From assembly GCF_007988805.1 (NCBI RefSeq), contig NZ_BJUV01000004.1, positions 1-64,000 of the forward strand: a stretch of DNA of 64,000 nt, read 5' to 3'. The notes under the pieces are model-generated. The model worked only from the letters and a program-made list of their open reading frames with translations. It was not told where the DNA came from and did no database searches. The DNA is from Frigoribacterium faeni (GTDB lineage: Bacteria > Actinomycetota > Actinomycetes > Actinomycetales > Microbacteriaceae). The translations under genes and the position numbers were made by a program. Below are positions 52,267-52,387 of this stretch, piece after piece. The stretch's first letter is position 1; every line of letters begins with the position of its first letter.

Positions 52267-52346
52267 GCTGACGAGTGTCAGCGCGTGGATGGTCAGCCGA
52301 CGACGAACTCCGCGACGAGGGAGGCCTGGGCTAGGACTCGTCGCGG
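52267..52346 (-). promoter_or_regulatory. leuA attenuator region
   Basis: On the minus strand two inverted repeats follow the leader peptide start: CCGCGACGAG (52346-52337) with CTCGTCGCGG (52319-52310), and GCTGAC-N4-GTCAGC (52282-52267). The first overlaps the end of the leader peptide, so a ribosome stalled on the Leu codons would affect its folding. No T-tract is seen, so the mechanism may act on termination or on leuA translation. Confidence 0.6.
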
Positions 52347-52375
52347 CAGCTAAGGAGGAGCAGACCGAACAGCAC
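52331..52375 (-). CDS. leuL: Leucine-rich leader peptide of leuA
   Basis: A 14-residue reading frame, GTG start, reading MLFGLLLLSCRDES with five Leu codons among the first eight residues, four of them in a row (CTG CTC CTC CTT). It lies 84 bases upstream of leuA. TAGCCT (52387-52382 on the minus strand) ends exactly six bases before the GTG, so this peptide would be translated from a leaderless mRNA. The composition and position are those of ribosome-mediated attenuation of a leucine gene. A second GTG four bases earlier opens a different, Leu-poor frame and was set aside. Confidence 0.7.
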   Translation of the reverse strand: MLFGLLLLSCRDES

Positions 52376-52381
52376 GCACCG

Positions 52382-52387
52382 AGGCTA
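52382..52387 (-). promoter_or_regulatory. -10 hexamer of the leuL-leuA promoter
   Basis: TAGCCT on the minus strand, six bases before the GTG of the leader peptide at 52375. No clear -35 box. Confidence 0.55.

Follow-up and report, generated by a model that had tools for sequence, protein, structure and literature searches.

The region upstream of leuA in Frigoribacterium faeni raises the question of what kind of leader stands before this gene and by what mechanism it could respond to leucine. The window analysed here is a stretch of 64,000 nucleotides (contig NZ_BJUV01000004.1), in which the gene and its leader lie on the minus strand. The product of leuA is a full-length 2-isopropylmalate synthase with the Pfam domains PF00682, PF22615 and PF08502. 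Its ATG at position 52246 is located 129 bases downstream of the start of a short frame, the codons of which are GTG CTG TTC GGT CTG CTC CTC CTT AGC TGC CGC GAC GAG TCC TAG (minus strand, 52375-52331). The hexamer TAGCCT (52387-52382, minus strand) is followed by a gap of six bases and then by the leader GTG at 52375. The frame MLFGLLLLSCRDES, its run of four Leu codons, the distance to leuA and the position of TAGCCT had all been described exactly in the initial annotation of this DNA, which proposed a leaderless, leucine-rich leader peptide and an attenuator with two inverted repeats. The parts of the leader are collected in Table 1. In the leu leader attenuator of E. coli, the leader peptide contains regulatory rare Leu codons and the leader ends in an intrinsic terminator. 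The leader in the window differs from this type in having no intrinsic terminator and a start that looks leaderless.

Table 1. Parts of the leuA leader in the window and the gene downstream of it
Feature	Coordinates	Strand	Basis or remark
-10 box, extended type, TGCTAGCCT (TGN then TANNNT)	52382..52390	(-)	sequence; no -35 seen
Leader peptide frame MLFGLLLLSCRDES, 14 codons, stop TAG	52331..52375	(-)	transcription start predicted at GTG
Leu run CTG CTC CTC CTT	52352..52363	(-)	last codon is the rare, near-invariant CTT
P1 hairpin, 5' arm CCGCGACGAG	52337..52346	(-)	conserved stem and covariation
P1 hairpin, 3' arm CTCGTCGCGG	52310..52319	(-)	conserved stem and covariation
P2 pseudoknot, loop strand GGCC	52323..52326	(-)	swap test; alternative register UAGCC 52333-52329
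P2 pseudoknot, downstream strand GGCTG	52294..52298	(-)	swap test; also the left arm of the second inverted repeat
Shine-Dalgarno (SD) region of leuA, AGGAGC	52255..52260	(-)	complementary to GCUCCU of the Leu run (52361-52356)
leuA, 2-isopropylmalate synthase	50486..52246	(-)	Pfam; gene presumably controlled

No Rfam family is found in the leader (51000-53500 searched up to E 5; the three weak matches all lie outside it). The whole leader does not stand out in folding energy (z -1.58, matched by 14 of 200 shuffles), and nor does a 37-base piece round the P1 loop, in which the outer P1 pairs are cut (z -0.43). The evidence presented below is comparative and not energetic.

All 115 leuA upstream regions sampled from the genus, the family and the class contain a short frame in which three or more of five codons are Leu; 16 further loci with a leuA match below 60% identity had been dropped beforehand. 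When class-level and named genomes were added, 260 loci were examined and 234 gave a leader, 214 of them distinct. The other 26 comprise five leuA loci of other clades, seven distant non-leuA genes, two loci without a located leuA leader, and 12 loci of leuC, leuB or a weak match in the window's own genome. The 214 leaders are not an unbiased sample, since the filter required Leu codons and a P1-like stem; they include four loci of other clades that passed it (L058, L060, L062 and L064). The leucine-rich leader peptide of the initial annotation is thus conserved in the samples of family and class. An interrupted frame or unconserved Leu codons in relatives had been named as the observation that would speak against it, and neither is found, apart from a partial exception within the genus. 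Only two leaders have no LLL, namely this one (L010, MLTCALRLLRRRDES) and L211, which reads LLIL. L010 has its Leu run upstream of leuA broken by an Arg but retains P1 and the final CTC CTT, which makes this locus a natural test case. A covariance model of the leader, R1, finds a match in 208 of the 216 class genomes searched and in 82 of 86 genera; part of these genomes also supplied sequences to the model, and the downstream gene was checked for some of the matches only. One locus, L256, belongs to a record titled 'Acidobacteria bacterium isolate G2_35'. Its leuA is 78% identical to that of the window, and the contig may be of Microbacteriaceae origin with a wrong label.

By the same order of parts, the near identity of its peptide to LeuL1 of S. 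lividans and the class-wide matches of R1, the leader in the window is the actinobacterial LEU element of leuA (Seliverstov 2005, PMC1262725). The likeness extends to the frame with the Leu run, the pseudoknot, the base stem formed by the Leu run and the SD, and the lack of a terminator. The initial annotation had already noted that leader-peptide control of leuA is known in actinobacteria. The earlier study covered about 20 genomes, including Leifsonia xyli of the same family; it does not mention leaderless starts and doubts classical attenuation by translation of the leader. Its authors left the mechanism open and preferred the idea of a regulatory protein, helicase-like. They cite mutants in the Leu codons of the S. 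coelicolor leuA leader (Craster 1999) as having some effect that does not fit classical attenuation, and elsewhere in the same paper as having no effect. The present comparison adds, in relatives, a near-fixed CTT codon and an extended -10 box, and copies before leuC and leuB, where the 2005 study had the element at leuA and at one transposase gene only. The copy in the window is itself an ordinary, well conserved example of a known switch.

Two further leaders are similar in part. In C. glutamicum, leuL (MTSRANLLLLRRGGSQRS) is likewise a leader with a Leu run before leuA; the passages on it in PMC8709942 and PMC4046766 describe it as transcription attenuation, in which it differs, and the likeness given here is that of the leader. 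The cysteine leaders of mycobacteria (Canestrari 2020, cited in PMC13236596) are, by the title of that paper, leaderless short frames that form an amino-acid-responsive attenuator. This likeness is one of title, and the amino acid is cysteine and the genes are others.

The -10 motif TANNNT lies 6-8 bases ahead of the start codon in 193 of the 214 distinct leaders, and exactly six bases ahead in 154 of them; the count of 193 is somewhat favoured, since the script preferred starts with a TANNNT box. As a background, the motif stands at 5-8 bases before 0.43% of 16,775 other ATG or GTG triplets in the same loci. The box is preceded by TGN, as in the extended type, in 158 of the 193 leaders. The position profile shows no -35 element, and a crude -35 pattern occurs in 10 of the 193. 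In S. lividans, LeuL1 (MRFGLLLLSCRGEGL), also before leuA, is described as leaderless by transcript data and as lacking a typical terminator in the LeuL1 passages of PMC8079986; the peptide as given there differs from that of the window in sequence details only. The promoter spacing and this reported homologue suggest that the leader start in the window may be leaderless, a prediction from sequence that is in agreement with the initial annotation. The annotation had also regarded a leaderless start and a missing terminator as less usual details. However, both had been published for LeuL1, as the same passages of PMC8079986 state, and the missing terminator also for the leuA LEU element of most Actinobacteria (PMC1262725).

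The first inverted repeat, noted initially as overlapping the end of the peptide frame, corresponds to the conserved and covarying hairpin P1. This stem has 10-11 base pairs in all 115 leaders and is free of mismatches in 109. In 55 aligned leaders 98.4% of the P1 cells pair, with changes on both sides in three of the ten pairs. Between the last Leu codon and P1 there are 5 bases in 205 of 212 leaders. The 5' arm of P1 is made up of the last codons of the peptide, and the stop codon falls inside its loop in 210 of 214. In the helix P2 the P1 loop is paired with a downstream GGCUG. Together they form the hairpin and loop-downstream helix that characterize the pseudoknot of the LEU element. P2 is short in much of the family (GGCC/GGCU), with 4-5 base pairs in the window, and long in other leaders, as in CAGACCGGC/GCCGGUCUG; its compensated variants include CAGGC/GCCUG, UCAGCCG/CGGCUGA and CUAAGCC/GGCUUAG.

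In the alignment used for covariation (A1), the P2 columns are out of register in some rows and 68.9% of the cells are paired, and P2 was therefore assessed by swapping its strands between species. Over 214 leaders the species' own pairs are better than the swapped ones (z 9.7, none of 500 swaps as good). Within the family alone (102 leaders) the test gives z 0.0, since the motif hardly varies there. Phylogenetically independent contrasts give p = 0.065 for the contiguous helix and 0.37 for the duplex energy. The second inverted repeat of the initial annotation, GGCTGAC (52298-52292) with GTCAGCC (52272-52266) on the minus strand, is not conserved; P2 uses its left arm as one of the two strands. 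Stems of at least 7 base pairs are found at this place in 12 of 214 leaders as compared with 11 of 214 after shuffling. On this comparison, the repeat is a chance feature of the species and was rejected as a part of the device. Another candidate, in which the Gly-Leu codons GGUCUG (52366-52361) would pair with CAGGCC of the loop (52328-52323), reaches z 2.9 in the family only; it was rejected, as z is 0.6 across 212 leaders and the contrasts give no support.

The last codon of the Leu run is nearly fixed. In 205 of 212 leaders this codon is CTT, which accounts for 79 of 5206 Leu codons in the leuA genes of the same loci and for none of 223 in six genes of the window. CTT is also last in 22 of 25 leuC leaders and in all six leuA loci from a different clade in the phylum (L057, L058 and L061-L064), three of which are also counted among the 212. 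Downstream of the Leu-run leader, these six loci have a hairpin, then a second, GC-rich one, and a tract of 4-6 T. Since they have no arrangement in which the Leu run faces the SD, the CTT codon itself would be the more likely object of selection. Word searches of the open-licence literature found no published description of a near-fixed CTT codon in the leuA leader.

The Leu run must also be considered in relation to the SD of leuA. In the window the two are complementary over six bases (GCUCCU, 52361-52356, and AGGAGC, 52260-52255), as required for the base stem of the LEU element. Over 212 leaders the own Leu run and own SD pair better than species-swapped ones (z 7.8, none of 300 swaps as good). 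Relatedness inflates these z-values, as a control pairing in the same test also reached z 2.5. In the phylogenetic contrasts, 35 of 52 non-zero values are positive, with p = 0.017 for duplex energy and p = 0.2 for the contiguous helix. When the Leu codons alone are used, p is 0.18-0.21, and another control, in which the Leu codons are paired with the stretch following P1, gives a contrast sign p of 0.049. With relatedness controlled, these values lend modest support to co-evolution of the Leu run and the SD.

In 172 compact leaders, partition-function folding gives a mean SD accessibility of 0.24 for the free RNA, which rises to 0.55 when a ribosome occupies the first Leu codon; the value is increased in 156 of the 172. 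It is 0.44 with the ribosome on the last Leu codon, 0.32 at the stop codon, and 0.33 when only the codons ahead of the Leu run are masked. When the 3' parts are exchanged between species, the free accessibility is 0.29-0.31 in six swaps, that is, the SD is less sequestered than with the own parts; the gain upon stalling is 0.31 with the own parts and 0.25-0.26 with the swapped ones. Since the swapped parts keep most of the gain, the modelled effect would be mostly generic, arising from CU-rich Leu codons opposite purine-rich SDs, with a smaller specific part. In the window itself the effect is small (0.38 free and 0.46 stalled). The model covers folding with assumed ribosome footprint sizes and ignores P2, proteins and kinetics.

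The arrangement of these parts allows us to propose that the LEU element probably acts as a ribosome-mediated translational attenuator of leuA. P1 and P2 would fold the leader in such a way that the Leu run is placed against the SD. When leucine is plentiful, ribosomes would reach the stop codon and depart, the Leu run would pair with the SD, and leuA would be poorly translated. When leucine is short, a ribosome would stall on the Leu codons and cover the run, so that the SD would be free. CUU is the most likely sensor codon, and the loss of untranslated leuA mRNA mediated by Rho could be a secondary effect. The conserved start at the promoter, the conserved frame and the rare CTT suggest a role for translation of the leader, and the complementarity of the Leu run to the SD points to control of leuA translation. 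In the sense of transcription termination, the word attenuator in the initial annotation is not directly supported, as no T-tract follows. The main rival is Rho-dependent transcription attenuation, which we regard as unlikely. In this mechanism the leader ribosome would terminate when leucine is plentiful and Rho would load behind it, ending transcription before leuA or early in it, and a stalled ribosome would prevent this. A P1 hairpin with no T-tract after it would be in keeping with such a role; Rho is proposed for the terminator-less cys leaders of mycobacteria (PMC1262725), and the leuA passages of a C. glutamicum review describe transcription attenuation by leucine (PMC8709942). However, the gap from P1 to leuA is at most 50 bases in 121 of 214 leaders and 63 bases in the window. 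This would seem too short, even though Rho could act inside leuA, and a Rho mechanism would not explain why the Leu run is complementary to the SD.

It appears still less probable that the LEU element is the binding site of a regulatory protein and that the peptide is incidental, the idea preferred in 2005. It was argued from the phylogenetic pattern and the S. coelicolor mutants (PMC1262725), but the frame, its start at the promoter, the Leu run and the rare CTT are all conserved. In addition, the Leu leaders of the six loci of the other clade end in CTT and stand before a terminator-like hairpin, where decoding would be the natural sensor. Those same loci offer a pattern for classical attenuation at an intrinsic terminator, which for the window is very improbable: the longest T-run between the frame and leuA (52330-52247) is TT, no GC-rich hairpin followed by a T-run is present, and a run of at least five T occurs in 9 of the 214 leaders, three of which are loci of that other clade. 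The unremarkable folding energy of the leader would be compatible with a chance frame that has no function, an explanation contradicted by the family- and class-wide conservation and of practically negligible probability.

The element is not confined to leuA in the relatives. Several genomes gave two or three R1 matches, and 19 such places were fetched: nine before leuC, eight before leuA or a leuA paralogue, and two before leuB-ilvE. An element before leuC is found in 25 of 31 loci with E below 1e-9, the 31 being the 30 best of a 60-genome family sample (59 with a match) and the window's own genome. Such copies occur in many Microbacteriaceae (L170, L172-L175 and L177-L180, and 25 of L272-L301). 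For L170 and L185 the proteins LeuC, LeuD, LeuB and the aminotransferase were also checked by Pfam. At L185 and L181 a LEU-like element lies upstream of leuB-ilvE, with the mixed branched-chain leaders RFVLILRCRDGA (L185) and VFVLIDCRGEA (L181), and the genes downstream of both were confirmed by similarity. Another leuC locus, L286, retains P1-like arms, with no Leu run or leader frame found (weak match, E 0.015), and its element seems to have decayed. In the window's own genome the leuC locus has no LEU element, and the search for a second copy gave weak matches only besides the leader (best E 0.2), L188 being one of them. Word searches limited to open-licence literature found no published description of the leuC and leuB copies.

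With the translational proposal, the mechanism becomes narrower than in PMC1262725. It appears that the Leu codons are decoded, with a rare and nearly unchanged codon in last place, and that they double as a strand able to block the ribosome-binding site of leuA. The two roles are separable by simple mutations that keep a codon without the pairing or the pairing without the codon. With the leuC and leuB copies of relatives, what was a curiosity of one gene becomes a candidate for pathway-wide control. As a tentative joint reading, it is possible that the LEU element is a ribosome-run switch with the Leu codons as the anti-SD strand and a near-fixed CUU as sensor, and that its copies govern leuA, leuCD and leuB-ilvE, so that the whole pathway would be under one repeated leaderless RNA device and not a transcription factor. 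The interest therefore lies in the mechanism of the LEU element and its extension over the leucine pathway in relatives, more than in the copy of the window.

A separate repeat is located just downstream of leuA, at 50035-50445, where three copies of an imperfect palindromic unit (GTCGGCAACTCCTGG ... GGCAGGAsTTGCCGAC) have starts spaced by about 140 and 181 bases. In the genome, a single place matches the exact pattern including its two complete ends, and units with similar ends are found near the 3' end of leuA in several other species of the genus.
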